From NCBI RefSeq assembly GCF_000153485.2, contig NC_018721.1, forward strand, positions 992,001 through 1,056,000: 64,000 nt of DNA, read 5' to 3'. Under the pieces are notes generated by a model that had not been told where the DNA came from, did not search any database, and worked only from the letters and a program-made list of their open reading frames with translations. The DNA is from Psychroflexus torquis ATCC 700755. Its GTDB lineage: Bacteria; Bacteroidota; Bacteroidia; Flavobacteriales; Flavobacteriaceae. The translations under genes and the position numbers were made by a program. Of this stretch, positions 3,625-42,366 are shown in pieces (position 1 is the first letter of the stretch; each line of letters starts with the position of its first letter).

Positions 3625-3629
3625 GTGTT

Positions 3630-6818: not shown

Positions 6819-7162
6819 TCACTTTTAGTATCATTTATATCCTTTTTATGACCAGCACGCTGTCTTTTTTCACTCTCTAACTTTGCTAACTTAATAGGAC
6901 TAATTTGAGTTCTTGTTTGAAAGGTATCCATTATATAAAGTAAATCTAACACTCGTAATGCTCGTAAAAAAGTAGTTAAATTAACTGTTTTTCCACGTTC
7001 AAGTAAGCTTAAAGTAGAGCGACTAATATTAGCTGCCTCAGCAACATCTTCTTGTGATTTATTTTGATTTAAACGATGTTGTTTTACAAAGGCACCTATT
7101 GTGGTGTTTAGTGCTTGATCACTCATCGAGTTCCAATTTGTACTGTATGATAACTCGGCCAT
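6812..7162 (-). CDS. hipB: HipB-like antitoxin, helix-turn-helix repressor
   Basis: 116 residues with a central Xre/Cro-type helix-turn-helix (residues 23-80, SQEDVAEAANISRSTLSLLE). It precedes and overlaps hipA, the standard antitoxin-toxin order. HipB proteins neutralise the kinase and repress their own promoter as dimers on inverted repeats. Two matching inverted repeats flank the promoter upstream (7185-7200 and 7237-7252). The basic C-terminal tail (KRQRAGHKKD) may be disordered. Confidence 0.92.
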   Translation of the reverse strand: MAELSYSTNWNSMSDQALNTTIGAFVKQHRLNQNKSQEDVAEAANISRSTLSLLERGKTVNLTTFLRALRVLDLLYIMDTFQTRTQISPIKLAKLESEKRQRAGHKKDINDTKSDW

Positions 7163-7756: not shown

Positions 7757-10700
7757 TTATTCCAAGAGTTGTTCAAATCTATTCCATTTATCATTTCCGT
7801 TCAAAGCATTCACTTCCAAGTGTATCTTTAATTGAGTTTCAACGTTTGGTAGTGGAAATTGAATTTTCATCATTTCTCCCTTCTGTAACTTTCCGCCATT
7901 TGGTCTTGTTTTCAAAAATCCTAAATCTAAATTGGCAAAAATTAGCTGTAAATATTCTTCAGTTAGTTCTTCGTTATTGGTTTTCACAATATGTGCGTGA
8001 TTGTTAACCCACGATTTACCTTCGATTATAAACGCTGTATTATCTCCCTTGTTCCATTTAGCTCCATCTTCGCCTATTAAAACCAACTTTTCATCAAAAA
8101 GAAAACTGTCAATCATTCCTGTTTTTCCTGTCGCTCCATAATAAGCATAATCTGCACTACCACGTTTTGATTTTTTTACAGGTTTACGCTTATGGTCTAA
8201 AATTTCACAAATATTACTGTCAGATAAACTTGTCAAAGGATAAGTATTGAATTCTAAATACGGATTTTTTAATGATTGCATATAAACTCTATAATCGAAA
8301 GTGACGTCTGAAAAATCGAGCATTTCGTTAAACTCTTTAATCTCTACATATTCTTTTAATGAATCTGGAACTGTAATCGGCTCATTTAAAAAGTTATTAT
8401 AAATCAAAGTATTTAGTTTCTCTGGATTTAATAATAATTCTTCATCATACATTTTTGAAAATATTTTACCCGTGTCGTTGTATGGATAGGGATGAACACC
8501 TTCATATTTTGTCATAGACGAATGTTCATAGCCAAGAAAGAGTTTCATTCTATCCTTGTCGCCTGCGTTTCCAATTACAACTTTGTTATTTGTGTTTAAA
8601 AGAAAGATACGAATTTTCTCTTTTTCGTGTATCCAAATTTTATCGTCTTTGATTTTTTCTGTAAAATCTGTAAAATTTTTAAATTGAGTGTTTAATAAAA
8701 TGTATTGGGAAATAATATTCTTAATTCCATCAAATGAAAAGTCTGTTTCTTTCTTTTTGAAGTCACTTAAAAGAACATTTATTTTATCAATTTCTACTTT
8801 TTCTCTTTTTTTGATAAATAGAGCAATAGTTGGCTGACCTGCATATGTAAATGCTTTTGTTCCAAATTCACAAAGACCACAAATTTTAAAATTTTCTAAA
8901 AGTAGTTTACGAGCTTTTTGGTGAATACCTCTATTTAGCAAAATTGTGCTTGGTAAAATTATACCAGCAAAACCATTTTCTTTTAATAATTGAGAAGTTC
9001 GTTCAATAAACAAACATTCTATATCATCACTTTTGTCGGTAATTTGGTCATATAAATCAAAAGTTCCTTTTCCATTTTCCAATACCATTCTAAAACTTTC
9101 AACTGAAAATGGCGGATTTGCAACGATTGCATCAAAAACTGGATTTTGTTTATCTCCTGTTTCATTGTTTAGTTTTCCATAATACAATTTTGAATTAAAA
9201 GGTGCTAAACCATCGCCGTACAATATTTTTGCCTCGCCATCTCCGTTTAAAAAACAAGCTACTTTTGTAGTTTTGGCAAGACGATAATCCTTTTCTATAC
9301 CATAAACAAATTCTTTCGCCCACTTATATGCTCGTTTCCAAGCGTAAAAATTATCTCTCTGAGTATTTGTTCTAAATTCTTCGTTTTTTATCGATTGTAG
9401 AATTTTATCAATTCTGTCCATAGCATCATTTAGGAAGTGACCACTGCCACATGCATAATCGATTACATAAGGAAGGAAATTATTGTCTTTAAGATTAATT
9501 TTATTCTCGATAACTTTCTCAAATGGAATAGAATTACAAATGAATGTTGTTATTGGCGTTGGTGTGAAAAATTGACCAGATTCTTGTTTTATACCGATAT
9601 TAAGAAGTCTTTCAAAAAAATCGCCAAGAAATTTTTGCTTATGTTCATATTTAATTTTGAAAGTTTCTAAAAGTTTGACAACTTCTTTTACTATTTCGGC
9701 ATTTTCATAAAATGTGCGTTCGTTTATTACTTCTTTAAATGCAAACTCATTATTTTTATAAAGACGAAGTTGTTTAAACATATTTTTTATTTCCTGCGTT
9801 TCACCGTCGATTTGGGAAGCTATTCTTAAAAGTTCCCTATCAAAATCTTCTTCCGAGACGTCTGCAACGTCCAATTCCATATAATCCTTCATCCCTCGTT
9901 TGTGCAAGTCGCTTAATCGATATATTACATCAACTGGATTTTCATTATATTTCCATTGAAACTCCATTTCGTAATTTCCATCAACTGCGTTGTCCTCATC
10001 TACTATTTTACAAAGAAATAAGTTGAAAATTTTATTATAAGCATTTGATTTATCTGAAATAGTATGTCTTCTCAAAATTTCTGCAAAACGGTTGAAAATA
10101 GAGCCATCATCGTTATTTTCAGGCGAAAGATAAGAATGGTCAATAGGTTTTAGGTCACTATTTACTATGCCTAAAAAATTTATACCGTATGCAGGAATTG
10201 ATGGCTCAAAAATACCTTTTGTGTAAAATACATTATCCCATATTTCATGGATTTCTACTTGGTTTTGAGCCTTTATGAAGTCCGATGTATGAATTATACT
10301 TGAAAGATAATCTAATTCATTTGTTGAAGTTATTAAGTGTGACGTATAAAGGCAGAGATATTTGGCATTTTGGTCTTGCAAATAATAATTTAAAATTTGT
10401 TCTTTATTTGTATTGTTTTCTAGAGTGATTTTTAAGGCTTTGTTATATTCTTTTCCCCAAGTTTTACACTCAATCATCAAATAAGCTTCTCCTTCGTTAT
10501 TCGTTACGTAGATATCTAAAAATCCACCAACTCGCCAATTTTTTTCGAGTTCAATGTTTTTTGCTGAGTAACCTTTTTTAAGTAAACGAACTACACATTC
10601 TAGAACAACAAGATTTTCAGACTGACTGAAGTTGCAGGTAGTCTGACGATGTGTTCTTATTTCTGAATCATACTCTATTTTCCATTCATTTGATTTTTCG

Positions 10701-10819
10701 CCTTCTAGGTTAATTCCGATTATGCACTCATTTATTTCTGCTTTCCAATATTCTTTTCTTCCATCTGTCAGACTAAATCCTAATGCTGTAATAAATAATT
10801 CAATTTTTGTTTTTGTCAT
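7757..10819 (-). CDS. Single-chain restriction-modification enzyme (R-M-S fusion, type IIG-like)
   Basis: 1020 residues with three parts. Residues 70-125 form a PD-(D/E)xK nuclease (GGFLDIYV with Asp102, then IECK with Glu117 and Lys119). Residues 380-700 are an N6-adenine methyltransferase of the HsdM type, with the SAM motif DYACGSGHF (454-462) and catalytic NPPF (568-571). Residues 840-1010 resemble one HsdS target-recognition half (KRGSADYAYYGATGKTG, LIGEDGAKWNKGDN, LPNVETQLKIH). One polypeptide could thus recognise, methylate and cut DNA, as type IIG enzymes do. All key residues are intact. No separate partner genes are adjacent. Confidence 0.9.
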   Translation of the reverse strand: MTKTKIELFITALGFSLTDGRKEYWKAEINECIIGINLEGEKSNEWKIEYDSEIRTHRQTTCNFSQSENLVVLECVVRLLKKGYSAKNIELEKNWRVGGFLDIYVTNNEGEAYLMIECKTWGKEYNKALKITLENNTNKEQILNYYLQDQNAKYLCLYTSHLITSTNELDYLSSIIHTSDFIKAQNQVEIHEIWDNVFYTKGIFEPSIPAYGINFLGIVNSDLKPIDHSYLSPENNDDGSIFNRFAEILRRHTISDKSNAYNKIFNLFLCKIVDEDNAVDGNYEMEFQWKYNENPVDVIYRLSDLHKRGMKDYMELDVADVSEEDFDRELLRIASQIDGETQEIKNMFKQLRLYKNNEFAFKEVINERTFYENAEIVKEVVKLLETFKIKYEHKQKFLGDFFERLLNIGIKQESGQFFTPTPITTFICNSIPFEKVIENKINLKDNNFLPYVIDYACGSGHFLNDAMDRIDKILQSIKNEEFRTNTQRDNFYAWKRAYKWAKEFVYGIEKDYRLAKTTKVACFLNGDGEAKILYGDGLAPFNSKLYYGKLNNETGDKQNPVFDAIVANPPFSVESFRMVLENGKGTFDLYDQITDKSDDIECLFIERTSQLLKENGFAGIILPSTILLNRGIHQKARKLLLENFKICGLCEFGTKAFTYAGQPTIALFIKKREKVEIDKINVLLSDFKKKETDFSFDGIKNIISQYILLNTQFKNFTDFTEKIKDDKIWIHEKEKIRIFLLNTNNKVVIGNAGDKDRMKLFLGYEHSSMTKYEGVHPYPYNDTGKIFSKMYDEELLLNPEKLNTLIYNNFLNEPITVPDSLKEYVEIKEFNEMLDFSDVTFDYRVYMQSLKNPYLEFNTYPLTSLSDSNICEILDHKRKPVKKSKRGSADYAYYGATGKTGMIDSFLFDEKLVLIGEDGAKWNKGDNTAFIIEGKSWVNNHAHIVKTNNEELTEEYLQLIFANLDLGFLKTRPNGGKLQKGEMMKIQFPLPNVETQLKIHLEVNALNGNDKWNRFEQLLE

Positions 10820-11919: not shown

Positions 11920-11945
11920 CTCAGTCATAGAACATAACTTAAAAA

Positions 11946-12534
11946 GATTCCGCATCGCGGCTATAGCCTTGTATGGAATGACAATTATGAATTGGTGGCT
12001 GAGTGACCCGCTATTTTGTAGCGGGGTGTATCGAAGCCACGTTAAAATAGATTTCTTCAATATTAAGAACATCAATTAAAAAGATTCCGCATCGCGGCTA
12101 TCGCCTTGCACGGAATGACAATTATGAATTGGTGGCTGAGTGACCCGCTTTTTTGTAGCGGGGTGTATCGAAGCCACGTTGAGATAGATTTCTTCAATAT
12201 TAAGAACATCAATTAAACTGATTCCGCATCGCGGCTATCGCCTTGCACGGAATGACAATTATGAATTGGTGGCTGAATGACCCGCTTTTTTGTAGCAGGG
12301 TGTATCGAAGCCACGTTAAAATAGATTTTTTCAATATTAAGAACATCAATTAAACAGATTCCGTATCGCGGCTATCGCCTTGCACGGAATAGCAATTATG
12401 AATTGGTGGCTGAGTGACCCGCTTTTTTGTAGCGGGGTGTATCGAAGCCACGTTAAGGTAGATTTCTTCAATATTAAGAATATCAATTAAACAGATTCCG
12501 TATCGCGGCTATCGCCTTGCACGGAATGACAATT
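11946..12534. repeat. 137-base tandem repeat array, four units plus a partial
   Basis: Units begin with GATTCCGnATCGCGGCTAT at 11946, 12083, 12220, 12357 and 12494, exactly 137 bases apart. Each full unit can form two hairpins: ATTCCG...CGGAAT, and a two-step stem GTGGCT...CCCGCT...AGCGGG...AGCCAC. Units differ by scattered substitutions. The last partial unit runs to the stop codon of the gene at 12535. The array lies downstream of operon A, where it may stabilise or end the transcript. No spacer variation is seen, so it is not a CRISPR array. Confidence 0.9.
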
Positions 12535-13200
12535 TTAATCCAGTGAGTATTTCAGGCTTTTTGTTATTTCCCTTATCGTGTTTATTAATGGAAAATATTT
12601 AAAATTATCGTCAATCCTTGCTTCAGGATGACAATAGCTAATTATGATTATATTTTGTTCAGAAACATGGTACCGCACACCCCAAAAGGACAGTTTCCAT
12701 TTGTCAAATTCTTCAACTAGGTTAAACTTTTTTAGAATATCACCTGTAGGTGTCCCACAGCAAACGATAATCTTAGGATCGTATAATTCAATTTGTTTTT
12801 TTAAAAAAAGCTGATCTTCTTTAGCATATCCCCATATGATTTTATTGTTGGCGGTATGACTCCCCGACTCCTTCTTTAAATTAATCGCTGCAATTTTAAG
12901 CAGTTGTTCAATTCTAAATTCTTTAGATCTTAATTCTTTCAATTCAGCCCACAAATAATTTTTATTCAAATTATTTATACCAAATGTCCAAAGGGCAATA
13001 TTATCCCAAGTTGGCTTTCTTTCTCCTTTTTTTAGTAAATCCCGTAAATCCCAATTTTTACCGCCATTTACCTCTTTTAATAAGTAAAGAATTTTAAACT
13101 CCGATTCTAAATAATTATCTAGTTGAACTATGCCATCACTTACAAAGCCTGGTCGTTTTTTTTTCCATTCGTCAAATAACTCTTCTTCTTTTTTTATCAT
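12535..13200 (-). CDS. UDG-like protein 1 of operon A
   Basis: 221 residues. It has the motif pattern of three neighbours: a strand with KILYLLKEVN and WDLRDLL (residues 35-55), a strand with PKIIVCCGTPTG (about 140-150) and a C-terminal HPEAR after a hydrophobic strand (about 190). The order strand-motif 1, central strand, HPxxx resembles the uracil-DNA-glycosylase superfamily, where the His motif contacts DNA. Activity is not established, and the catalytic residues of motif 1 are not the classical ones. Its start overlaps the end of the next gene upstream by 4 bases. It is the last gene of operon A. Confidence 0.7.
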   Translation of the reverse strand: MIKKEEELFDEWKKKRPGFVSDGIVQLDNYLESEFKILYLLKEVNGGKNWDLRDLLKKGERKPTWDNIALWTFGINNLNKNYLWAELKELRSKEFRIEQLLKIAAINLKKESGSHTANNKIIWGYAKEDQLFLKKQIELYDPKIIVCCGTPTGDILKKFNLVEEFDKWKLSFWGVRYHVSEQNIIIISYCHPEARIDDNFKYFPLINTIREITKSLKYSLD

Positions 13201-14006
13201 TTATGTTTTGGTTTTTTATTAATATCTATAAAAGCTTGTTCCAAATTATCTTTAATTGGCTTAATCTCCACAAGCCTTTCATACTGTAAAGTTTTTAATA
13301 GGCTAGCTTTTATTTTTTCTATTTGATTTAAAGAATCACAAATCTTATTATTTAAAATTTCGAGATCATTTTCATATAACGCATCTGGATAACTATTATC
13401 AATTTGCTTTTTAAAAGCGGTGTAGCCTTTTAAAATATCTTCAAAATAGTATTGACCGCTCATCCTTGCATTTGGATGATCAGCATTTATATAAATCCTC
13501 CCAGATTTAGCAGTGGCGTGACAAGTTCCAAAACTGTTCATTTGGTTTAGTCTTAGTTCACTTTCAAAAAACGGATAAGTTTCACCGAATATGACCACAT
13601 CAGGTTCAAGAGCTTCTATAATTTGAACAATCAGATGCTTTGACTTTTTATAAAATTCTAAAGGATGCCTTCTGACTGCAAGATTTTGGTTCTCTATGTT
13701 TGATATACATATTACAGGTGTTTCTTTCTGTATGCTAGATCCCGTTTTATTAGCTTCTGTACTATCGGTATTTAAAGCACGCCACACTTTAGTCTTATTA
13801 CTTAATTCGTTTTTATTGGTTAGTAAACTAGTTGAGTAATCGCTTACTGATTTGTCTTGTTGTACCCAAATTATTTTCAACTTGCTGACGGCATAGGCTT
13901 TTTTGTCAAGGCTCAGCTTAAAGATTGGTAACATTTCAAATTTTTCAGCTAGCCTTTTTGCTCTTGTCAATAAGCCTTCCACTTCGGTATATTTAGATAA
14001 ATCCAT
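13197..14006 (-). CDS. UDG-like protein 2 of operon A
   Basis: 269 residues. PDVVIFGETYPFFESEL, NSFGTCHATAKSGRIYI and DHPNARMSGQYYFEDIL (about 135-210) align with the same positions of the protein encoded at 14101, so the two are paralogues. The N-terminal motif (LKIIWVQQDKSVSDYS) is more diverged. A C-terminal helical extension of about 55 residues is unique to this copy. The HPNAR motif fits motif 2 of uracil-DNA-glycosylase folds (inference). It is translationally coupled to the downstream paralogue. Confidence 0.7.
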   Translation of the reverse strand: MDLSKYTEVEGLLTRAKRLAEKFEMLPIFKLSLDKKAYAVSKLKIIWVQQDKSVSDYSTSLLTNKNELSNKTKVWRALNTDSTEANKTGSSIQKETPVICISNIENQNLAVRRHPLEFYKKSKHLIVQIIEALEPDVVIFGETYPFFESELRLNQMNSFGTCHATAKSGRIYINADHPNARMSGQYYFEDILKGYTAFKKQIDNSYPDALYENDLEILNNKICDSLNQIEKIKASLLKTLQYERLVEIKPIKDNLEQAFIDINKKPKHK

Positions 14007-14013
14007 GGTTATT

Positions 14014-14058
14014 TAATTTTGTACAAATTAAATATAGCGGTCTATCATTTAGTGATAG
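14014..14058. promoter_or_regulatory. Two inverted repeats between UDG-like genes
   Basis: TAATTT-TGTAC-AAATTA (14014-14030) and CTATCA-TTTAG-TGATAG (14042-14058) lie in the 94-base gap ahead of the 14006 start. A TTTAATTTG resembling the -7 element of the regulon promoters overlaps the first. They could form an internal promoter and operator; no U-run argues for a terminator. Confidence 0.4.
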
Positions 14059-14100
14059 GGTAATTAAAATTTATTTTCTAATGAGAAGATTAAAAATCTT

Positions 14101-14757
14101 TTATAATTTAGATTTACTAAGATTAACAGTCTCTAAAATATCATTGAAATAAGTTTCTTCTTTAATAGTATACATTGGATGGTATGCATCAATATATAAA
14201 GTGCCCTTTTCAAGTGCAGACTTACAACTCCCAAAATCATTAAATTCCAAATTTAAATCATTTTTAAAAAATTTATAAGTGCCGCCAAAAATTATAATAT
14301 TTGGTTTAAATTCTTCTATTTGATTAAAGAGTAGAGTTTTAGAAAATTTATAGTAATCACTTATTTCATTTGGATTTGCTTTAGCTCCTCCACCTGTTTT
14401 TTTGACATTTATGTAAGCAACTTTTTTTAATTCATCTATTACTTCTGGTTTGTAGGAAGGATGATATAGTTCGTCACACCAAGATAAGTTGTTTAAAATA
14501 CCGTTTGTAACATAGATTATTTTTTTAAAGGTTTGGCTCCAACCCTTACGGATTCCTGTCTCTGTTTTCAATTTTTCATTAATATGATCTCGCATATCCC
14601 AAGATTCATTTTCACCTGTACTATTGGCTTCTTTTAAAATCCATAAAATTTTAATACCTGTTTTGTTATATTCAATTTCATTTACAATACCATCAAATAT
14701 TGCAGGTCTATCAAAATGTCTTCCTACTTTCTCTATTTCTTGATCAAAATTTTTCAT
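14101..14757 (-). CDS. UDG-like protein 3 of operon A
   Basis: 218 residues combining the motifs of both downstream copies: IKILWILKEAN and SWDMRDHI (about residues 33-60), PNIIIFGGTYKFF (about 155-168), FGSCKSALEKGTLYI and YHPMYTIKEETYFNDIL (about 175-210). This makes it the best bridge showing that the three are one family. The HP motif is kept. It begins 87 bases after the coiled-coil gene, so it may be partly uncoupled from the rest of the operon. Function is inferred from fold-like motifs only. Confidence 0.7.
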   Translation of the reverse strand: MKNFDQEIEKVGRHFDRPAIFDGIVNEIEYNKTGIKILWILKEANSTGENESWDMRDHINEKLKTETGIRKGWSQTFKKIIYVTNGILNNLSWCDELYHPSYKPEVIDELKKVAYINVKKTGGGAKANPNEISDYYKFSKTLLFNQIEEFKPNIIIFGGTYKFFKNDLNLEFNDFGSCKSALEKGTLYIDAYHPMYTIKEETYFNDILETVNLSKSKL

Positions 14758-14844
14758 TTTATATAAATTTGGTTAAACTTTCTGGACTAGTTGTGAAGTA
14801 TTACTTTAAACTCCATTACGAAGTTGTAAATTTTGAAGAATGGG

Positions 14845-15366
14845 TTATTCTCCATCACCTTCCATGTCAAAATCTTCATCGTCAGCATCAGGCTCTACTT
14901 CGTCAAAATTAGTACCTGTTGCATCTAGTATAGATTCTAATTTATTTTTAACGTCTTCTGCTCTTTCTAACAAATTCTCTGTCATGTCCTTTAACTCGTC
15001 CACTTGATTACTTATTTGTTCCAAATTAGAAGTTAAATTGTTGATAATACCTTTTAGATTAACAATTGTTTCCGAAATAACATCAATAAGATTTGGAACC
15101 TCTTCTATTTCTATTTCGTTAACTTCAAGTTTTTCCTCAACTTTTTCTATCTTTTCTGAGGATTCCTTTAGCCCCTCTAAACTTTCATTCTTTTCAGGTA
15201 CTTCTGTTAAAGATTTCAAGTCACCGCTCTCCGATACTTGATCCTTTAATGGTGATAATTTTTCACTTGCTTCTTTTAGCTTATCAGTGAAGTCTTTAAC
15301 TTTAGAAAGACCTTCATTTGCCTTTGCAAGTCCTTCCATTAGTGGTTTAATTAATTGAATTGCCAT
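14845..15366 (-). CDS. Acidic coiled-coil protein
   Basis: 173 residues, almost entirely charged heptad-like helices (for example LVNNL-type repeats, KIEKVEEKLEVNEIEIEE and NQVDELKDMTENLLERAEDV). It ends in a very acidic tail, DEVEPDADDEDFDMEGDGE. No Cys or catalytic motif. Such proteins serve as oligomer scaffolds or DNA mimics. It sits 3 bases after the HerA-type ATPase gene and is probably its physical partner. Family not recognised. Confidence 0.75.
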   Translation of the reverse strand: MAIQLIKPLMEGLAKANEGLSKVKDFTDKLKEASEKLSPLKDQVSESGDLKSLTEVPEKNESLEGLKESSEKIEKVEEKLEVNEIEIEEVPNLIDVISETIVNLKGIINNLTSNLEQISNQVDELKDMTENLLERAEDVKNKLESILDATGTNFDEVEPDADDEDFDMEGDGE

Positions 15367-15369
15367 AAT

Positions 15370-18300
15370 TTATACACAGTTTAAGTTTCTATTTTTAATA
15401 TCTGATAAATAAGCATTTAGAATAGGTAAATACTTGTTGTCTTTTTTAACTTTATAAATAATAGTGAAGCCAACAATATTTATAAAGTTTTTATCTTTAG
15501 GGTTAAATCCCCATTTGTTGCAAAGTATTTCTTTATAAAGGAGAAGCGCCTTGTAAAAGCTATGTTGTTTTTCATTGCTCAAGGTTAACATTAAATCTAA
15601 AGCTGTGTCTACTTCTAATAATTTACACAATGCGTCCTGAATGAATTCTTCATCAATATCAGATTTAAGTAATCTATTAGATATATAACTAGAATCTTTA
15701 AACTTTGAGGTTTTGGTTAATTTAATAGTGTCTAATGCATTTCCATTGTAGCTTTCAACAAGCTGATATGCTAAGAATTTTACAATCTTTACTTTTACTT
15801 TTTTGTTATTGTAAAAAATAAATTTTGATTCTTTTTTTTCAAATAAATTAAACTTACACAAAACGGCCTCTTGCCAGTCATTTTGATAAACTGCAGCTAC
15901 TCCTGTTTCCAATTTAGCCAATTCCTTAATTTGATCATCATTTAAATTCATTGATTTGCCGACTAGTTCTCTATCATCTTGTGAAGGTAATCGCAAACAA
16001 ATCTTTGTATTTGTATTTCTAATTGCAGATGGATCTAATAGACTAGGTGCTTGGTCTGCTAAAATAAAGCCTTGCCCATAAGTTCTCATCTCAGCAATAG
16101 CATTAGAAATCATCTCTACAGATTTACCTTGTAAATTAGCACTCTCTTGACCTTGCTCTGAACTAGTTTTTTTTAATAGATTATGTGCTTCTTCAATTAT
16201 GGTTACATGTTTTAATTTACTATTTGCTTCTAACGCGGTAGTCATTCTGTACTCTTGCAGTTTCATAAACAAAACACCCATAATTAAAGATTTTGTTTCT
16301 GCTGATGCTACTCTTGATAAATCCACAATTGCATTGTTGTCAAAAATTATTTCAGAAGTTATCTCCTCATCTGTAAAAATTAATTTGAATATACCATTGG
16401 TCATACTATTTACCCTAGTTACTAAAGCGCCAGAATAATTAGAAATCATCTCTTGTGAATAACCACTATTTTCAATTAGTTTAGGTAATATTTTAGCTAA
16501 ATCATTAAAAGTTGGATATAATAATTTTCCAGTTAAATTTTCTGAAGCAACTAAATCCCACCCTTTACTTTCATAGACCTTTTCAACAGCATCTTTCAAG
16601 ATTGCTGGCATTGCTGCATACATTGGCCAAGAAGCATTTAATATCTCAATGAACCGATCTATATGTTCATGTATATGAATACTTTCAGGAAAAGAAAATG
16701 GATTAATTTTTAAGACTTTAGTATGATTAAGATTAGTCCCATAGACGTTTACATCCTCTCGATTACCAAAAACGTCTTTATACTCACCTTTAGCTGGTTC
16801 TATTACTAAGAACTTTATATTTTTTCTTATAAGGTTGTTTACAAGATTATAAGTAACATTTGACTTTCCAGATCCTGTACTTCCAGTCACAAAAATATGC
16901 CCAGTGAATTTTTCTATGTCTAAAGAAAATTCTTGATCAAATTCTTTTTCGTAATTATATAACTTACCGATGGAAACTAGATTATCCCCTCGATGCTTAA
17001 TATTGTTGCCAAAAGGAGCAGTTTCCACAACATCTAAACCAACAAATGATTTATGGGGCATTGATGCCTGAATGCATAACTCTGCTGTATTTGTTATTGT
17101 AGCAAGCTTGATACTAGTCTCCGATCTTGAGACTTTTGTTTTTATAGTAGGTAAGTTATAGGATTTTAATGCTTCTAACAAATTTGAGTGGTTCTCTTTA
17201 TCTTCATGAGTAGTAAATGTGTGAACGACAGACTTCTCAACTCCTGTATCATTCCCCTTAATTAAACCACCGTATATATTTGCAGCAACAATACTATTTT
17301 GTTGTTCCTTGGACATAAAATAGGCACCCGTATTCCAAAGACCCAAACTTTCTCCTCTTTTTAAACGGTCAAATTGTAAATCTAACTTATCGAGTATATT
17401 GACAATGGTTTTGTTTTGACTTACAGACTGGATACTTCTACTAGATCCTTTTGATTTCGCTTCGGAATTAGAAGTACTCTCACTATTACTTTTGCTAGAG
17501 GAATTTGACTTAGTGTTAGCACTTGAGCTTGTTTTAGTTAAAGAAGTACCTTTAGTTTTCGAAGTTGCTTTTGTATTTAACAACTGCCCATCATTTACCT
17601 CTTTAAAACGAATTTCCCTTCTTACTTTATTCGCGACACTAACCGATTTATTATTAATTTGGTTAAGAGAGTAACTAATTGGATTAGGTATATTAAGTTT
17701 GCTTTGTGTTCCAACAACAACATTCATTACTCTTTTCACAATCCAAGGATTCGAATTTTCTGTATGAGATGTATTTTTTCCTTTAGCTAAAGATTCTGTT
17801 TCTGTTTGAGATACTGAATTTGTATAAGTTGATCCTATTGTTTCTGTAATTCCATCAGTCAAGGCTATAGATTCATTCCAACTTAAATTTTTTGTTTGTT
17901 CTTTTAAAGGATATAACTGCGAGTATATATTTTCATAAAAGCGTTTAGCTGTATCAATTTCTTTTGGTTTTATGGGTTCTGCAATAAATAACGCAGAGAA
18001 TTCTTTCCCTTGCATCGCAATTATTAAGTTTTCAATACCTTGAACAAAATTATCTTCTTCTTTATTTTTCAATGCCGCAACGCCTAAAGAACAAGAAATT
18101 TCATCTGCATTTTGAAAAACAGCACTATTTAATTTTTCAATTTCTTTGTTAGGCAAAGAATCTTTAGTAAAAGTTGTTCCTGGAAAGTTTCCTTCAAAAG
18201 CTCCTTTAAGAATCTTTAAACTTTTAGCGGCGTCATATTGCTTTTTTACACCTATATAAAGATCACATTGATTACCATTAGATACTAGCTTTATAATAAG

Positions 18301-18579
18301 AGTTGTGCCTGTTGAATAAAGAGCGCTATAAACAGAGAGTAATTTATCCGTGATTTTTATATCTTTTTCGTAAACAAACTTATGAAGATGAAGAAATCTT
18401 ATATTAGAGGAAAATCCAATCTCATCATGATCATTGGCTAATATCTCAAAATTTTTATCGATGAGATATTGTCTCGTTAAAAAATTAAGAGAAGCTTCAA
18501 AGTCTTTTATGGATGTCTCTATCTCGTTATCCTTATTGGATGAATCGTTGACATAGTTATCGTTGTTTTGATCTTTCAT
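15370..18579 (-). CDS. HerA/DUF87-type ATPase with Ser-rich linker
   Basis: 1069 residues. The ATPase has Walker A GSTGSGKS (566-573), the HerA-like IEPAKGEYKDVFG after it, Walker B VTIIEEAHNLL (792-802) and a conserved ADQAPSLLDPSAIRNTNTK (about 841-860). HerA proteins form hexameric rings that translocate DNA and often pair with nucleases or other effectors in defence systems. The N-terminal 300 residues are an uncharacterised domain. Residues 341-385 are a Ser/Lys/Asn low-complexity linker. It lies between the membrane protein gene and the coiled-coil gene with gaps of 5 and 3 bases. Confidence 0.88.
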   Translation of the reverse strand: MKDQNNDNYVNDSSNKDNEIETSIKDFEASLNFLTRQYLIDKNFEILANDHDEIGFSSNIRFLHLHKFVYEKDIKITDKLLSVYSALYSTGTTLIIKLVSNGNQCDLYIGVKKQYDAAKSLKILKGAFEGNFPGTTFTKDSLPNKEIEKLNSAVFQNADEISCSLGVAALKNKEEDNFVQGIENLIIAMQGKEFSALFIAEPIKPKEIDTAKRFYENIYSQLYPLKEQTKNLSWNESIALTDGITETIGSTYTNSVSQTETESLAKGKNTSHTENSNPWIVKRVMNVVVGTQSKLNIPNPISYSLNQINNKSVSVANKVRREIRFKEVNDGQLLNTKATSKTKGTSLTKTSSSANTKSNSSSKSNSESTSNSEAKSKGSSRSIQSVSQNKTIVNILDKLDLQFDRLKRGESLGLWNTGAYFMSKEQQNSIVAANIYGGLIKGNDTGVEKSVVHTFTTHEDKENHSNLLEALKSYNLPTIKTKVSRSETSIKLATITNTAELCIQASMPHKSFVGLDVVETAPFGNNIKHRGDNLVSIGKLYNYEKEFDQEFSLDIEKFTGHIFVTGSTGSGKSNVTYNLVNNLIRKNIKFLVIEPAKGEYKDVFGNREDVNVYGTNLNHTKVLKINPFSFPESIHIHEHIDRFIEILNASWPMYAAMPAILKDAVEKVYESKGWDLVASENLTGKLLYPTFNDLAKILPKLIENSGYSQEMISNYSGALVTRVNSMTNGIFKLIFTDEEITSEIIFDNNAIVDLSRVASAETKSLIMGVLFMKLQEYRMTTALEANSKLKHVTIIEEAHNLLKKTSSEQGQESANLQGKSVEMISNAIAEMRTYGQGFILADQAPSLLDPSAIRNTNTKICLRLPSQDDRELVGKSMNLNDDQIKELAKLETGVAAVYQNDWQEAVLCKFNLFEKKESKFIFYNNKKVKVKIVKFLAYQLVESYNGNALDTIKLTKTSKFKDSSYISNRLLKSDIDEEFIQDALCKLLEVDTALDLMLTLSNEKQHSFYKALLLYKEILCNKWGFNPKDKNFINIVGFTIIYKVKKDNKYLPILNAYLSDIKNRNLNCV

Positions 18580-18584
18580 ATTGC

Positions 18585-19034
18585 CTATCTAAATAATCTA
18601 TAAAGAATATACCCGCTTACAATAATTGACGCTCCAATTAATAAATATGTTTTTGTATTCAACTTAACGCCATTCTTTCTATTTACATCAGTCAGATCCT
18701 CTTCCGGATTATCACCAAAAAAGTTGTCTTTTTCTACCATTAATGGATACAGTCGAATAACCTCGTTGAAGCGTTCTCTTGAAAAATTAGAACGCAGTTC
18801 CACTTTTTCAGCATAAAAAAAATCACTATTCGATGACCTAATAACTTCTGTTTCAGTTTCTAGATGTCCTTCAAACTTAAAAGAACAATTATTCTCTGCA
18901 TATTCCACTGCTTGTTTAAGCTCAAATATATTTCCTTGAAATAACATTATCATTTCTGATAATTGGGATTTTACCATTTTCAAGTCATTTTCCTTAACTC
19001 CGTCCACAAAGGATTTATTTTTTTTAAATTCCAT
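18585..19034 (-). CDS. Small C-terminally membrane-anchored protein
   Basis: 149 residues. The first 120 are soluble and charged (several FKF and ELR segments). A single membrane helix, YLLIGASIIVSGYILYRLF, ends the protein at about 129-147, giving a tail-anchored topology with the bulk in the cytoplasm. It lies 7 bases after the dynamin-like gene, so it may anchor the GTPase or ATPase to the inner membrane (inference). No family recognised. Confidence 0.75.
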   Translation of the reverse strand: MEFKKNKSFVDGVKENDLKMVKSQLSEMIMLFQGNIFELKQAVEYAENNCSFKFEGHLETETEVIRSSNSDFFYAEKVELRSNFSRERFNEVIRLYPLMVEKDNFFGDNPEEDLTDVNRKNGVKLNTKTYLLIGASIIVSGYILYRLFR

Positions 19035-19041
19035 TAGAATA

Positions 19042-21303
19042 TTATTTACACTTATTAATTTGTTCTAGATAATTCTGCAAATCGTATTTAATATTGTCAG
19101 TTTTTTGATTAATCTCAGTAATATTATTTTGCAAGTCTAACAGTTTTGGAGTCGTTCTTTGACTAAAATCGCTTTCTATAGTGTTAACTATTTTTTTACC
19201 TTCTTTTATGTAAAGATTTACGTTGTCATTATAATTTTTATTTACGTTATCAAGCATTCCTTCGACCTTAAGCTTAAGCTCAGGAATCTTTAATTCATTG
19301 TATATCTTATTAAGATCGTATTCATCACGGATTTCCCAGACCTCTTCTTTTTTAAAACTAAACCAAGACTTAGGTTTCCACCATGTTGATGTACTTATTT
19401 CCACTTCACCTGTTTTAACTATTCTTCTTGTCTTAACTCGATATATATTACTGCTATTTAATATGATATGAAAATCATTAGAGAGAATACTGGTTGCCTT
19501 ATCTGATAGATCCAAATCATTTATGAAATCGTCAAAATCTATTTTGATAATATTAATTATCCCTATCCATTTTTTTTTTAAATCATAATCTAACTCAAGC
19601 CTTACACTTGATTTCAAACTTATTTCCAGATTCTGAATAACCTTATTTGCTATATGCCTTGCTCTATAAGCTTGTGATTTAGTTGCTTCTTCATCTCTAA
19701 GATTCGTATAAATTTGACCGAAATCTTTTTCAACACGATTTTTGAGTTTATCTATAGTGTTATTTTTAGAAGAAATTTCACTTAATTTAGATGTTAAAAT
19801 TTCTAATTTAGAATTCAAAACTTTTTCAGATTTTTTTATTTTTTTAATATCCTCCTTTATTGCTTTCTTTTCTTTTTCAGTTAATCCTTGCACTTGATTT
19901 TTCAATTTATCAAAATGAGGTATTAAGTTTGAAAGTAAGTCATGTCCAAGCTCGGTCTCATGAACATTTTCGATATACTTTTGAATATGTAATTGCAAAG
20001 CCGAAATTCCAGATCTGTGTAAGCATTGCGTTAACCTGTCCTTACTATCTAAGTTTTTTAAAAGTGACTCTTTATCTTTTTCTAAAATAGGGGCAAATTT
20101 AATGATATCTATTCCAGCATATTCTTCATCAGCATCAGGCAAAAATATATCTTCATATTTTCTCAAGGCTAACTTTTCATTTCTAGTAAGTTTTCCCGTT
20201 TGATTTGATTGACATAAACGGGCAAACTCTGCTGAAATTGGAAATATTTTTGGATTACTTATCCCTATAGTCTCTGCTAGATATTTCTTAGTTGAAATAA
20301 TGATCGTTTCTATAGATTCCTTTTCATGGTCTAAATCGTCAATTCTGTTAAGCACAAATAGAAACCGATCCTCTGTTGATACACCTTTATCCTTTATGAA
20401 CTCTGCTATTTCTTCCAAAACACTTTTGTCATCTGTCGTTTTAAGTTTAGTAACATCCAATAAATATATTATTAAGGGCTTATGATTACTATCCTTTATA
20501 TAATTATATGTTACTTCTTTGTGCTGGTCATTTTGAGAATTATTGGGGCCAGGAGTATCAATCAAAACAACGCTTATATTTTCAGATGAAATATTTTTAA
20601 TATCTCCTTCTATTTCGACGGTCAGAAACTTATCATTACCACTATCGTTTATCTTACTTAAGGTATCAGCGTTTAAGTCATTGTGTTCATCAATTATATT
20701 TCCATTTTCATTTTTAACTAACGCACTAAAATTCTCCTTTCCATCAATATCTTTAATCTTACATATAGTAGCTGTACAAGCTTCATTTTTACTGGGCATT
20801 AAACTTTCTCCCAATAAAGCATTAATCAAAGTAGATTTTCCTGCACTCATAGTGGCAGCAATGACTATTTGTGCTTCAGACTTATCTATCTTATCGAGAT
20901 AGGTGAACAAGTTTTTCTCAACAAAATATTGTTTTATTACGTCGTCCTTATCCTTCTGTTTTATTTCAGTAAGAATCGACTTAAAATCTTTTATCAAATT
21001 GGACTTCTCTAATTCTCTAGTTTTCAGTTCGACTTTTACTTTCCTATCTTTATTAAACCGAAATACAATGTCGCTAACGACCTCTATTTCATGTCTTGTA
21101 GAACTAAAAGCTATATCAAATATTTCCTCGTTGAGTTCTTCTTGATATTTATTTAAAAAATCATAGAACCAGTTCTCGATTCGTCTATTTTTATTATTGT
21201 CCTTTATAACTTTAATAGACTGTTCGAAGCCTTTCCCTTTATTTAAGAAACCTTTATACTTAACCCTATAGGAATGTTTATTATAATCAATGCTTAAAAT
21301 CAT
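19042..21303 (-). CDS. Dynamin-like GTPase
   Basis: 753 residues. The GTPase motifs are complete: G1 TMSAGKST (151-158), G2 Thr in CTATI (about 176-180), G3 DTPG (249-252) and G4 NRID (319-322). A long coiled-coil stalk follows (about 465-535 and again near the C-terminus). A Trp-rich patch, STWWKPKSWFSF, near residue 640 could be a membrane paddle. Bacterial dynamins remodel or protect membranes, and some act against phage. Its place between a UDG-like gene (21-base gap) and a membrane protein gene suggests a membrane-linked response. Confidence 0.9.
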   Translation of the reverse strand: MILSIDYNKHSYRVKYKGFLNKGKGFEQSIKVIKDNNKNRRIENWFYDFLNKYQEELNEEIFDIAFSSTRHEIEVVSDIVFRFNKDRKVKVELKTRELEKSNLIKDFKSILTEIKQKDKDDVIKQYFVEKNLFTYLDKIDKSEAQIVIAATMSAGKSTLINALLGESLMPSKNEACTATICKIKDIDGKENFSALVKNENGNIIDEHNDLNADTLSKINDSGNDKFLTVEIEGDIKNISSENISVVLIDTPGPNNSQNDQHKEVTYNYIKDSNHKPLIIYLLDVTKLKTTDDKSVLEEIAEFIKDKGVSTEDRFLFVLNRIDDLDHEKESIETIIISTKKYLAETIGISNPKIFPISAEFARLCQSNQTGKLTRNEKLALRKYEDIFLPDADEEYAGIDIIKFAPILEKDKESLLKNLDSKDRLTQCLHRSGISALQLHIQKYIENVHETELGHDLLSNLIPHFDKLKNQVQGLTEKEKKAIKEDIKKIKKSEKVLNSKLEILTSKLSEISSKNNTIDKLKNRVEKDFGQIYTNLRDEEATKSQAYRARHIANKVIQNLEISLKSSVRLELDYDLKKKWIGIINIIKIDFDDFINDLDLSDKATSILSNDFHIILNSSNIYRVKTRRIVKTGEVEISTSTWWKPKSWFSFKKEEVWEIRDEYDLNKIYNELKIPELKLKVEGMLDNVNKNYNDNVNLYIKEGKKIVNTIESDFSQRTTPKLLDLQNNITEINQKTDNIKYDLQNYLEQINKCK

Positions 21304-21324
21304 TATTCTATTTTAATATTTAAT

Positions 21325-21981
21325 TTATTTTCCCAAAACACCCAAAACAAGCTCACTGAGCTTCTCTTTATTTTTTATCTGACTAAATAATCGTTTATAA
21401 CCAATAACATGTGTGTTACCCCATTTGGTGTAAGCAACATCAGCATTCCATTCAGCTTGGAGGTTTTTATGTTGCGTTACTTTGGTGAAGGCAGACTTAC
21501 CTTCACAGATAATTATTTTAGGCTGAATTATTTCAATAAGTCGGTTATTCCAATCGATAGATTTTTTTTCAAATTCTAGATCACCAACTAAAGTAATGAT
21601 TTTATTTAGGTTTTGTTCATTTTCAGTGGCTAAAAAATAAAAATTGGTCTTAACGGCTTTGCTTAAGTCCGCATCAGTAAGTCCGAGTAATCCAAAGAGT
21701 GCCTTAGTTTCTCTAGCCAAAGCGTAATTTTCATAAACATATTCCATGGTCTTTTCTGGCGCAAGTCTATGTGAGGTCTTACCCGTACTCTTATAATGAC
21801 CAGCTCCTGGATTTATGCCTATAAACATAAAGTTGGGTTGCTTTTGTAATGGTGACATAAGAATCTGAAACCCTCTAAATTTGTCTTTCACTGTTTCGAA
21901 TATATCAGAAGATATAAGTTCGTTTTTAAAATCGGCAACCTCCTGCATAAGTTGGTTATAATCTGCTTCAAGTTCATTCAT
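21325..21981 (-). CDS. GINPG-motif glycosylase-like protein, first gene of operon A
   Basis: 218 residues from the ATG at 21981. It has NFMFIGINPGAGHYKS, matching the GINPG motif 1 of the MUG/TDG branch of uracil-DNA glycosylases, and a central strand PKIIICEGKSAF. The C-terminal motif is HVIGYKRLFSQI, without the usual HPS. The frame extends 30 codons upstream, but those codons read through the dyad and promoter at 22010-22045, and MNELEADY starts right after a leader shared with the 11.6 kb gene, so the shorter form is correct. It heads an operon of up to eight genes. Confidence 0.75.
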   Translation of the reverse strand: MNELEADYNQLMQEVADFKNELISSDIFETVKDKFRGFQILMSPLQKQPNFMFIGINPGAGHYKSTGKTSHRLAPEKTMEYVYENYALARETKALFGLLGLTDADLSKAVKTNFYFLATENEQNLNKIITLVGDLEFEKKSIDWNNRLIEIIQPKIIICEGKSAFTKVTQHKNLQAEWNADVAYTKWGNTHVIGYKRLFSQIKNKEKLSELVLGVLGK

Positions 21982-22009
21982 TTTTTCTTGGTTTTTTTTA
22001 TTAATACAA

Positions 22010-22045
22010 CAAATTAAAAGTGAAACAACGCCAAAGCATGTCATA
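22010..22045 (-). promoter_or_regulatory. Promoter with dyad operator (copy 4), drives operon A
   Basis: AACGCCAAAGCATGTCATA (22027-22045) is the dyad. Its -33 TTTG lies 18 bases from the TTTG of TTTTAATTTG (22010-22018). The start at 21981 is about 29 bases downstream. Flanking bases (TGTCATACTTAAnAGGTTTG and AAnTAAAAGT) match the copy at 11.68 kb. Confidence 0.6.
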
Positions 22046-22249
22046 CTTAAGAGGTTTGTTGTGAATTTCACGAATAAAAGCAGTTAACGTTTCTATATAA
22101 GTACTTTCAGTTCTATTTATAAGTTTGTATTCTATAGCCTAAACCTGAATTAAGTAACTCGTTTTCGAGGTTAATTTAGAATTTAATTTTATTAAAGTCC
22201 GACCGATATCTAAACCTTACTCTTGAATTTTAAGTAAAAGACTCTGTTT

Positions 22250-22726
22250 TCAATTACAATCAAAAAACTCTAAAACAGACTCCCAGTTTGGGTACTCATT
22301 GTCTTTTTGATTTACATAGTCCCAACCAAAATGAATGTGTTTTCCCTTAAATTCTGAAGCACCCCGTGCCGTACGATCATCTATAAGATAATCCCCAATT
22401 AGTAAATCTTTACGATGTGTGATTATTATTTTTTGATAAAACTTGTCACCGAAGTGTTTTTCGATCCAAGTCCGTTTATGCATCCAAGCACTGGGATTAT
22501 CCCATGGCGCTGTGGTTAGTATAAATAAGTCAAATCGTTTCGTGTCATGCAGCTTGTTTACGGCTTCAATTGCGTCCTTTATCGGTGGTAAATTTTCGAA
22601 AATATCGGGAATATCATCTGGATCGTTTTTATATTGGTCTTCTTGAAATAATGGACTAGCCTTTGCACCCGCACCAAGATCGGCTAATACACCATCCATG
22701 TCGATAAAAACTATTGGTTTTTCCAT
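22250..22726 (-). CDS. NT5C-type 5'(3')-deoxyribonucleotidase, HAD fold
   Basis: 158 residues. HAD motif I is DMDGVLAD (residues 9-16), motif II is LTTAPWDNPSAW (about 77-88) and motif III/IV are KDLLIGDYLIDDR (about 112-124). The family (Pfam NT5C) dephosphorylates deoxyribonucleoside monophosphates; bacterial members are short like this one. Inside a defence-type island it might lower nucleotide pools during infection, but a housekeeping salvage role is equally possible. It is transcribed alone, with gaps of more than 160 bases on both sides. Confidence 0.8.
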   Translation of the reverse strand: MEKPIVFIDMDGVLADLGAGAKASPLFQEDQYKNDPDDIPDIFENLPPIKDAIEAVNKLHDTKRFDLFILTTAPWDNPSAWMHKRTWIEKHFGDKFYQKIIITHRKDLLIGDYLIDDRTARGASEFKGKHIHFGWDYVNQKDNEYPNWESVLEFFDCN

Positions 22727-22776
22727 GTTATAAGGTTTTATTCTTAATCGCTTTTATTAAACGAACTCTTTTATTT

Positions 22777-23013: not shown

Positions 23014-23304
23014 TTAGCTTTGACTTTTCTCTCTATTTATAAATAGGCTTCCAATTAATCCAATTCCGACAATAACGTCAACGATATTCCACATTTCTCT
23101 TCCCAAAGCGATTTTGAAAAACGGTTGAAAAAGTAGTGCAAGCCCACCATAAATGATCAATTCAGTATTCTTGTTCGCCTCATTAGCTTTATAAGCTAAA
23201 ATTCCAAATCCTATTAATGCTACAAATCGTACAAATTGATAAAATCCATAAGGCATATCTAACAAGCACAGAAACAGTAATACTGCTAATGCAATCTTTA
23301 ACAT
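23014..23304 (-). CDS. Small membrane protein, DUF6804-like
   Basis: 96 residues with three or four membrane helices (about 4-14, 20-38, 47-62 and 70-88). The GFYQFVRFVALIGF and IYGGLALLFQPFFKIALGREMW patterns match small membrane proteins that I believe are annotated as DUF6804. It is the last gene of operon B, 7 bases after the TerB-like gene. Its biochemical role is unknown. Confidence 0.75.
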   Translation of the reverse strand: MLKIALAVLLFLCLLDMPYGFYQFVRFVALIGFGILAYKANEANKNTELIIYGGLALLFQPFFKIALGREMWNIVDVIVGIGLIGSLFINREKSQS

Positions 23305-23311
23305 GGCTTCA

Positions 23312-23851
23312 CTATTCTTTATTTTTTTCTTTCAAGCTGTCTAAAATGTCATTATCAATTTCACTTATTAACTCAAATTCATTTGAAATATGCGTGTCAA
23401 AAAAGGCGTCTTGCAACCTTGATAAATAAGAATCAGTAATTATATCTTGTTCCAAATAGTCTTCAAAGTCAGGGTGCTTTTTAAGAATTTGATTGTTGTC
23501 AATTTTCAATTTTGAGCGAATGACTTTAAAAAACTTAATTTCGCTATATTCAACTTTTTGATCTGCTTTGATGGTGTCAATTGCTACTTCAATTAAGTTT
23601 AATTCATTGGCTTCACTTAAATTAGAAGTTGTTAATTCATCAAAATAATTTTTCATAAACAGGTGTCCATTGTTATTGATAGCAATTAACAGATTGTCCA
23701 TTTCTGCATTGACATCAATCTCACCAAAGGTTTTCTTTTCGTTATGTAAACGCTTTATCAACTTTATTTCTCGTTTATCAATATCTCCATCACAAGCCAT
23801 ACAGGAAAATGCTGTCTTTAATAATAGTTTGTCAAAGTTTATTGTTTTCAT
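23312..23851 (-). CDS. TerB-like protein
   Basis: 179 residues, all helical. The N-terminus has the TerB/DjlA-type signature (LLKTAFSCMACDGDIDKREIKLI, with acidic Asp and Glu that could bind metal), repeated more weakly at IDTIKADQKVEYSEIKFFK. TerB domains occur in tellurite-resistance and stress systems and often partner with kinases and ATPases. It starts 2 bases after the kinase-AAA+ gene. It is a likely sensor or adaptor in operon B. Confidence 0.75.
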   Translation of the reverse strand: MKTINFDKLLLKTAFSCMACDGDIDKREIKLIKRLHNEKKTFGEIDVNAEMDNLLIAINNNGHLFMKNYFDELTTSNLSEANELNLIEVAIDTIKADQKVEYSEIKFFKVIRSKLKIDNNQILKKHPDFEDYLEQDIITDSYLSRLQDAFFDTHISNEFELISEIDNDILDSLKEKNKE

Positions 23852-23853
23852 AT

Positions 23854-25626: not shown

Positions 25627-26325
25627 TTAAAATGCTTCATCAGAATTACTAGGTTTTGTGCTGAAGTTTCCACTTTGTTGTAAAATCAATTCATAACTCA
25701 ACACGGCATTCTCTAGCATTTGAGGTTTGTCTTTGCTAAAGGATTCCTTTACTATAAATCCTCCTTTTAAAACACCACAGTTTACTTTTTTCATAAATTT
25801 ATTTGGATTCCAACCTTTACCATAATAGAAAAATGCTTGATAACGACCATTAGGAAATTCAAATTTATAAGTACTGCCAGCCTTTATATATGCATGTCTA
25901 TAAACTTCACCATTCTTTTTAATGGTAACCATGACATCTGAGTTGCTTGGCGTTTTTACAGATATCCCAGCACAACCCCATTCCGAACAGGATATATTTC
26001 TACCGAAACAATAAGCATACGGCGTTGCACCTGTTCTTAATGAATTATAAATATACTTATCATACAAAGCTTTTTCTTTTCGTTGCTTCTCTAGTTTCGC
26101 TTGTTTTTCTAAGCGTTCAGTTTTTTCACGTTTTTGACGCTCAATTCTTTTTTGTTCTTTTTGGAAGGCAATTTCTTTAGCCTTATTTTTCATTTGAGTC
26201 TTTAATTCAACTCTTTGTAACTCTTCTTTTGCCTCGCGCTTTTTTCTTTCTGTTCCACTTTCACACGAAGAAAATACAAGTAGAAAACAGAGCAGAAATA
26301 AAGTGTATGTTAGTTTGTTTTTCAT
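25627..26325 (-). CDS. Lipoprotein with coiled-coil and C-terminal domain
   Basis: 232 residues. The signal peptide ends in the lipobox VFSSC (Cys20). Residues 28-90 are a highly charged helix (KKREAKEELQ, KRIERQKREKTERLEKQAK). A C-terminal beta-rich domain with Cys residues (SCSEWGCAG and VNCGVLKGG) follows. The protein should sit in the periplasm on a membrane and could carry signals from the envelope to the cytoplasmic kinase and Hsp70 encoded beside it (inference). No family recognised. Confidence 0.8.
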   Translation of the reverse strand: MKNKLTYTLFLLCFLLVFSSCESGTERKKREAKEELQRVELKTQMKNKAKEIAFQKEQKRIERQKREKTERLEKQAKLEKQRKEKALYDKYIYNSLRTGATPYAYCFGRNISCSEWGCAGISVKTPSNSDVMVTIKKNGEVYRHAYIKAGSTYKFEFPNGRYQAFFYYGKGWNPNKFMKKVNCGVLKGGFIVKESFSKDKPQMLENAVLSYELILQQSGNFSTKPSNSDEAF

Positions 26326-26334
26326 AGCTAGAAT

Positions 26335-28851: not shown

Positions 28852-28862
28852 TTTAAATATTT

Positions 28863-30298: not shown

Positions 30299-30301
30299 TT
30301 T

Positions 30302-40693: not shown

Positions 40694-42366
<1,673 letters not shown>

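Follow-up and report, generated by a model that had tools for sequence, protein, structure and literature searches.

A putative conflict cassette with dynamin-like GTPase, tail-anchored protein, HerA-type ATPase and cargo-slot genes, beside uracil-DNA glycosylase-like genes in Psychroflexus torquis

HerA complexes and dynamins are each known in anti-phage defence, and bacterial dynamin operons of the Eleos/Leo type are not known to have a HerA ATPase or a cargo slot. CedD is the DNA-translocating ATPase of archaeal import. Polymorphic toxins have been classed by the way they travel, the FtsK/HerA ATPases of the type VII secretion system (T7SS) being one such route (PMC3482391); the word 'dynamin' is absent from the available part of that text. 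Conflict systems regulated by GTPases and ATPases have also been described (PMC7159879, PMC8195603, each available in part). Here we analyse eight adjacent genes, named A to H in order of transcription, in a stretch of 64,000 nucleotides (the window) that covers positions 992001–1056000 of the single-contig, 4,321,832-base genome of Psychroflexus torquis ATCC 700755. They encode a dynamin-like GTPase (B), a small tail-anchored protein (C), a HerA-type ATPase (D), an acidic protein (E) and four proteins (A, F, G and H) that resemble uracil-DNA glycosylases (UDGs). A literature search, by titles and the beginnings of abstracts and with most subscription journals outside its coverage, found no publication that joins dynamin, HerA and toxins, nor do the available parts of the three papers cited above.

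By a slight balance of probability, B-C-D-E are what flavobacteria have of a mobile conflict cassette, a branch of it that handles leader-bearing cargo at the membrane. The cassette looks widespread and is apparently undescribed, and elsewhere it appears to carry swappable toxin genes paired with immunity genes. This reading builds on the gene content of the locus, the conservation of B-C-D-E as a unit, the toxin and immunity genes observed in the cargo slots of other loci, the similarity of the cargo leaders and the separability of the UDG-like genes; the function that we infer for the cassette comes from its relatives. The eight genes are as follows.

Gene A, 21325–21981, minus strand: 218 aa from ATG, UDG-superfamily-like, with a GINPG motif
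Gene B, 19042–21303, minus strand: 753 aa, dynamin-like GTPase; cassette core
Gene C, 18585–19034, minus strand: 149 aa, small tail-anchored protein; cassette core
Gene D, 15370–18579, minus strand: 1069 aa, HerA/VirB4/FtsK-superfamily ATPase; cassette core
Gene E, 14845–15366, minus strand: 173 aa, acidic helical protein in the cargo slot
Gene F, 14101–14757, minus strand: 218 aa, protein with a predicted UDG fold
Gene G, 13197–14006, minus strand: 269 aa, divergent F-family paralogue
Gene H, 12535–13200, minus strand: 221 aa, F-family paralogue

The original observation of this locus is confirmed: all eight open reading frames lie on one strand, as the sequence-only reading had stated, and the gaps among the first five genes (A-B 21, B-C 7, C-D 5 and D-E 3 bases) are the 3 to 21 bases that it gave. 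Gene A has an alternative start at an upstream GTG, which would extend it to 22071 (248 aa). Promoter and terminator scans were at the level of shuffled sequence (47 vs 50.2 and 3 vs 3.9, respectively), so that an operon boundary could not be drawn.

The earlier assignments of the core proteins all hold. B has a Dynamin_N domain (Pfam, 1.3e-17, 64.8 bits vs a cut-off of 27), scores 41 vs 1146 bits with the CrfC model of NCBIfam, has no match among PADLOC families at E 1 (library of 2023) and gave none at E 0.001 in a sequence search of solved structures. In C, which is without a Pfam, PADLOC or NCBIfam match, the 19-residue segment of highest hydropathy (mean 1.64) stops one residue short of the C-terminus, as befits the proposed tail anchor. 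D is a HerA-family ATPase (DUF87, Pfam, 1.8e-14), with a RecA-like motor and a Walker A motif of the HerA/FtsK/VirB4 superfamily and a serine-rich stretch of low confidence at residues 236–381. Its score with the NCBIfam model HerA_antiphage is 47 bits vs a cut-off of 800, its second-best NCBIfam match is CedD (88.6 bits, cut-off 600), and PADLOC gives partial HerA/mad8 matches; the names EccC and EssC are absent from its Pfam and NCBIfam matches. Homologues of D are listed only as 'ATP-binding protein', 'HerA-like' or hypothetical.

The sequence-only reading joined all eight genes in one anti-phage system: the UDG-fold proteins would inspect bases, the HerA ring would move on invading DNA and the dynamin would act at the membrane. 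The genes are indeed adjacent on one strand, A lies 21 bases from B, F has a predicted UDG fold and the E-F gap shows no conspicuous terminator-like site, yet the spacing widens after E (87 bases between E and F, 94 between F and G; G and H overlap by 4), and in other genomes the two sets of genes are found apart. An F-family alignment scan of genome contigs gave 72 loci, of which 69 have an F match in the gene calls (40 with at least 5 kb on both sides and 54 on at least one). None of these 69 has B, C, D or E beside F. In a set of 50 genomes that carry F (50 of the 72 loci given), a D relative at E ≤ 1e-60 turned up once, and it was a distant one located on a different contig. Conversely, A, F, G or H were found beside D in none of 47 other D loci, searched up to 7.5 kb a side. 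The conserved linkage of glycosylase-like genes with the dynamin–HerA pair that the joint model called for is absent from these loci, and because of these counts the model lacks support; a single conserved eight-gene system is ruled out, and an eight-gene anti-phage system of any kind appears very improbable.

The related Psychroflexus gondwanensis offers a further comparison. Its locus L004 (loci are given by L numbers) matches the window at 12522–14770 (95.8%) and 21876–22760 (90.2%), adjacently placed, and lacks the intervening stretch, i.e. most of A and all of B-E, with AAATTTA at both edges. Since A is truncated in L004, a deletion in that lineage is the simpler account. That A was mostly lost together with B-E would suit the joint model; that F, G and H stay open without B-E speaks against it, and since the deletion may be recent this persistence is only mild evidence of independence.

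The arrangement of genes elsewhere supports B-C-D-E as a probable unit of its own. In a Flavobacterium genome (G686, locus L095) the order is WYL-B-C-D-E, with a dynamin that scores 322 bits to B, a C relative at 54 bits, a D at 1057 bits and then a 170-aa protein; no A, F, G or H was called there. The unit is rare near the window's lineage: a D relative at E ≤ 1e-60 was present in 1 of 299 genomes of the family draw (the window's own), 2 of 395 of the phylum draw (its own and a distant one) and 1 of 299 of the genus draw. Close relatives of D are listed in Algibacter and Aequorivita, which were absent from the genome draws and are left out of the neighbourhood counts. Further away, draws from the family of a Treponema genome (195 genomes) and from the order of a Clostridiales metagenome-assembled genome (196 genomes) contained 9 and 15 genomes, respectively, with D at E ≤ 1e-100.

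The 47 other D loci come from plasmid records (12 used of the 51 that matched), viral contigs, one phage-collection record and genomes (10 of 11 places in the Treponema-family draw, G1135:C107 being left out, and all 16 in the Clostridiales draw), with the duplicates L086 and L118 dropped. Plasmid records matching B numbered 10, the seven best being D-bearing plasmids (Treponema, five Lactococcus, E. coli). As the core we take the D loci that score above 800 bits with the D profile, 33 besides the window. A dynamin-labelled gene lies upstream of D, within 5.5 kb on the same strand, in 17 of these 33; in several, two dynamin genes come in a row and the next protein has a hydrophobic segment at its C-terminus. 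Of 36 upstream proteins that were chosen, two each from some of the loci, 25 have a Dynamin_N domain, and GAP1-N2 and GAP1-M had one match each among the upstream proteins of D loci. The gene next upstream of D encodes a hydrophobic segment (mean >2) within 5 residues of the C-terminus in 10 of the 33. With the window included there are 34 core loci, and WYL genes lie near D in 15 of them; the window does not belong to these 15. Where the dynamin label is missing, its place is taken by Sel1/TPR proteins, Hsp70 or a protein of 525–680 aa that weakly shares the N-terminal part of dynamin. On a D tree of 45 rows, 9 changes suffice to account for the label, against a mean of 14.2 for shuffled labels (2 of 500 shuffles were as low); the count is rough, as 11 database proteins of unknown neighbourhood were scored as dynamin-less. 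In L087–L089, contigs of the viral collection, D is accompanied, in place of dynamin, by an acidic protein or gap, a 525-aa protein, Hsp70 and a protein of ∼ 400 aa that looks J-domain-like by eye; candidate cargo lies further along.

The gene directly after D, here called the slot gene, is usually small, and an overlap of exactly 4 bases with the ATPase gene occurs in 12 of 45 loci. On plasmids of E. coli (pTW10590_133), Exiguobacterium and Treponema (pTS2) the slot is annotated as an HNH-type nuclease followed by SMI1/KNR4, and Lactococcus pB26B has an HNH gene with an unnamed follower. We scanned 37 candidate cargo proteins, comprising 32 of the 45 slot genes and 5 further candidates from viral contigs; the 13 slot genes left out were nine of D relatives below 800 bits and four of the core (L083, L087, L089 and L093), and the distant slots L102 and L126–L128 were included, L102 having been chosen after its toxin annotation was known. 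Pfam matches among the 37 were Colicin-DNase (11), WHH (11), LHH (4), Endonuclea_NS_2 (2) and one each of ADP-ribosyltransferase, Gln_amidase and HNH; the Colicin-DNase and WHH matches fall on the same proteins in the five checked singly. Single scans confirmed a toxin in 11 loci (L077, L079, L080, L085, L102, L120, L124, L145, L147, L150 and L155). Among the 29 next genes examined at E 0.01 (41 in all, with 13 left out and one, of L083, added), SMI1_KNR4 was found in 12 and DUF6985 in 4. In L083, L087 and L089 another kind of protein stands directly after D, and candidate toxins lie further along.

The cargo proteins also vary in the manner of polymorphic toxins. The ATPases of L122 and L123 are identical at 980 of 1038 positions and their cargo proteins at 51 of the first 60 residues, and the last 90 residues of the cargo have no clear similarity (score 35), the L123 end being WHH-like (221 bits); this is one clear case of a C-terminal swap behind a conserved leader. 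L078 and L147 have 22 of 35 leader residues in common and different ends after them, and L120/L121 or L078/L150 have common ends behind more divergent leaders. In the wider D family we thus find a changed C-terminal toxin, a conserved leader and an adjacent immunity gene.

The recognized slot domains are mostly nucleases, and the motor fold of D is nearest to those of VirB4, DndH, TrwB and HerA. Both facts would fit a DNA-processing system, in which D translocates plasmid or phage DNA like HerA-NurA or conjugation motors and the slot nucleases cut it. Some slots, however, hold enzymes other than nucleases, namely a glutamine deamidase and, in one locus with a distant D relative, an ADP-ribosyltransferase, to which a DNA track would be of no obvious use, and E has no nuclease domain in Pfam; we consider DNA processing an unlikely role.

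E itself is the putative cargo of the flavobacterial branch. The acidic coil of the sequence-only reading was borne out: E is acidic and helical, with seven Pfam matches at 0.001, all of the coiled-coil type, and only coiled-coil-type matches in PADLOC. Pairwise comparison of E with the 170-aa slot protein of L095 gave no match; their alignment has 25% identity and common ends (MAI... and GDGE). A profile of the two gave six database matches, one of them L095's own and the other five (164–173 aa) aligning with E throughout, and four of the six lie on contigs of the same size as contigs with D homologues (1737342, 381488, 214813 and 20279). E is conserved in flavobacterial D loci. The window's genome holds one E.

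The leader connects E with the slot proteins of other phyla. Residues 1–35 of E, compared with the first 35 of 27 slot proteins, scored 22.2 vs 19.6 for shuffled sequence, a value reached by 7 of 500 shuffles; for six E relatives, which are not independent of each other, 0–1 of 500 shuffles did so, and in the control, slot residues 60–95, 147–453 of 500. With a filtered set of 14 slot proteins the similarity of the leader was reached in 0 of 200 shuffles, fading over the next 35 residues (26 of 200). The E profile also weakly finds two of the 37 cargo proteins, the slot proteins of L128 (0.0005) and L125 (0.003).

In the mechanism that we propose, a ring of D, putatively a hexamer, would work together with C and B, presumably at the inner face of the membrane. 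D would engage the product of the next gene through the N-terminal leader of this cargo and would drive it onward, by export or release. In other phyla the cargo would often be a small toxin of the polymorphic type with its own immunity gene; in P. torquis it would be E, which keeps the leader and has no recognized toxin domain. A more specific version is a protein-delivery machine, in which dynamins pinch or gate the membrane, a HerA/VirB4-type ring loads leader-tagged toxins for neighbouring cells, plasmids and islands spread the set across several phyla and the flavobacterial branch delivers E as a novel cargo; this we advance only tentatively. The predicted immunity genes argue for delivery to kin cells.

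The main rival is an internal immune trigger, in which dynamin, tail-anchored protein and HerA sense phage DNA or membrane damage and unleash the slot protein in the same cell (abortive infection), the immunity genes restraining it until then. The involvement of HerA complexes and of dynamins in anti-phage defence fits this explanation, as do the SIR2-HerA anti-phage complexes among the structure matches of D, the other defence-like genes in the window and the WYL genes near D in other core loci. The slot toxins are, however, of the polymorphic kind with SUKH immunity genes, a combination that we take to be more typical of toxins handed to neighbours; PADLOC, moreover, recognizes nothing in B or C and no more than the coiled-coil-type matches of E and the partial ones of D. 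In favour of the internal trigger, effector swapping occurs in immune systems too (PMC7159879, in the part available). We see the internal trigger as a possibility, itself rather doubtful.

Several observations weigh against a membrane-acting, cargo-handling cassette. No export channel gene was recognized, and the solved motors nearest to D include DNA movers. A dynamin label is lacking in 16 of the 33 other core loci, so dynamin is not essential to the ATPase–cargo pair. The slot genes of Ruminococcus and Photobacterium are unnamed; single scans found no toxin in L095, L122 (where the cargo end is not a recognized toxin), L125, L146, the L087 candidate and one L083 candidate, and only sub-threshold matches in L119 (NERD) and the other L083 candidate (HNH). 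In L083, L087, L089 and L093 D is followed directly by a gene that is truncated or does not resemble a toxin, and L084 and L088 have no adjacent slot gene. The leaders are K/E-rich, the leader test included four manual shifts of called starts, and the amphipathicity of the leaders is no different from that of controls (p 0.24 and 0.36). In the window copy E has no toxin domain recognized by Pfam, and the genome has no SMI1/KNR4, the sole immunity family searched, at E 0.01; the window copy therefore lacks both marks of a polymorphic toxin, and a toxin role may not apply here. As the cargo of this branch, E may be an effector of a new kind, or else an adaptor.

With polymorphic toxin systems and T7SS the cassette shares the conserved leader with a changed C-terminal end, the adjacent SUKH immunity gene and an ATPase of the HerA/FtsK superfamily. 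Unlike T7SS, its ATPase belongs to another, HerA/VirB4-like family, it has dynamin and tail-anchored partners and a cargo of ∼ 200 aa, and the window copy is without a toxin domain; no WXG or LXG family is listed among the seven Pfam matches of E or in the slot tally. YwqH is linked to T7SS, and a weak YwqH-like match of E (0.00078) falls on the coiled coil. D has the HerA-type motor fold of the HerA-nuclease, SIR2-HerA and DUF4297-HerA complexes, whereas C and E beside it have no SIR2, NurA or DUF4297 match. D differs from CedD in being bacterial and in having dynamins and toxins as its neighbours. As in CrfC and the Eleos/Leo-type operons there are dynamin GTPases, of which the relatives often have two, one after the other. 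The GAP1/DO-GTPase conflict systems likewise are GTPase-centred operons with swapped effectors, but in the available part of their description (PMC7159879) there is no HerA–cargo pair and no mention of dynamin.

The glycosylase-like genes were the other subject of the sequence-only reading, and here its proposal of UDG-like folds stood. In its 248-aa form A matches the Pfam UDG family (6.3e-6, 26.8 bits vs a cut-off of 24.3), and F, the one modelled of these four proteins, has a UDG fold according to structure-based comparison, with no Pfam family match above threshold. G (E 1.5e-15, over F residues 133–212) and H (E 1.6e-11) are homologous to F. H has matches below the cut-offs of Pfam UDG (0.0021) and TIGR00758 UDG_fam4 (8.3e-5); Pfam and NCBIfam scans gave no UDG family match for G, and a sequence search of solved structures gave none for A or H at E 1. 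The three proteins F, G and H are paralogous as claimed, but the full set of motifs attributed to them occurs only in F (KILWILKEAN, FGGT and HP): H keeps KILYLLKEVN and HP and has CCGT in place of FGxT, and G keeps FGET and HP and has lost the first motif (IIWVQQDKS at its place). F resembles family 4 UDGs and MUG/TDG in its predicted fold (identity at most 18% in the rows listed), and its HP and Glu43 may correspond to their active-site motifs; among 71 proteins of the F family H193-P194 is invariant and E43, which by eye may be the residue of the family-4 motif, is nearly so. Unlike those enzymes, F has no family match above threshold, and G has lost the first motif together with E43.

In their surroundings, too, these genes look like UDG-fold genes of other modules that happen to lie beside the cassette, A appearing to be an accessory outside the conserved core. 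Two kinds of gene recur within 4.5 kb of F, one for a WYL regulator (19 loci) and one for an AAA ATPase of ∼ 555 aa (11 loci). The window has such a WYL and AAA pair at 2725–5294; relatives of this pair go with F-type genes at other loci of Psychroflexus and at loci of Kaistella, which suggests a separate WYL-AAA-UDG module. F is 96% identical to its P. gondwanensis counterpart. An A relative occurs in one of the 69 F loci (L050, near the F-family gene), and another, in a further genome of the same taxonomic family (L105, 6838–10421), has 42% identity and follows an 886-aa gene of no assigned class. Pattern stretches in viral contigs, 66 for F and 5 for A, yielded no relatives. No plasmid carried A, and one plasmid record, of Vibrio alginolyticus, carried a distant F relative (L096:5929–6660), in the vicinity of which are genes for a HaeIII-family restriction enzyme and an AHH-domain protein.

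A tandem repeat (11929–12534, 4.4 copies of a 137-base unit) separates H from an unnamed gene of 174 aa; copies of it are also present in P. gondwanensis L004; none of the Rfam families matched it at E 1. On the other side of the locus, 23014–31450 encodes DUF6804, a TerB-like protein, a Ser/Thr kinase-AAA fusion matching the PADLOC models mad6, PD-T4-6 and IetA, an 838-aa HSP70 and several unnamed proteins. Further genes of the window are a HipA/HTH pair (5490–7162), a type IIG-like restriction-methyltransferase with a specificity domain (7757–10819), an RmuC protein (33798–35297) beside an SMC-like protein (35396–38017; PADLOC candidate family PDC-S06, 983 bits) and a 636-aa protein matching PADLOC mad3 (48444–50354; 7.8e-41). 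A serine recombinase at 40694–42366, the end of which overlaps a tRNA-Met gene, marks a possible island edge; P. curvus L025 has two extra 60-base matches to this tRNA-Met region.

If the proposed cassette is real, it would represent a new toxin route, or a new way to hold toxins inside the cell and release them. It would also give a job to a broad group of poorly named ATPases and a concrete role to bacterial dynamins.

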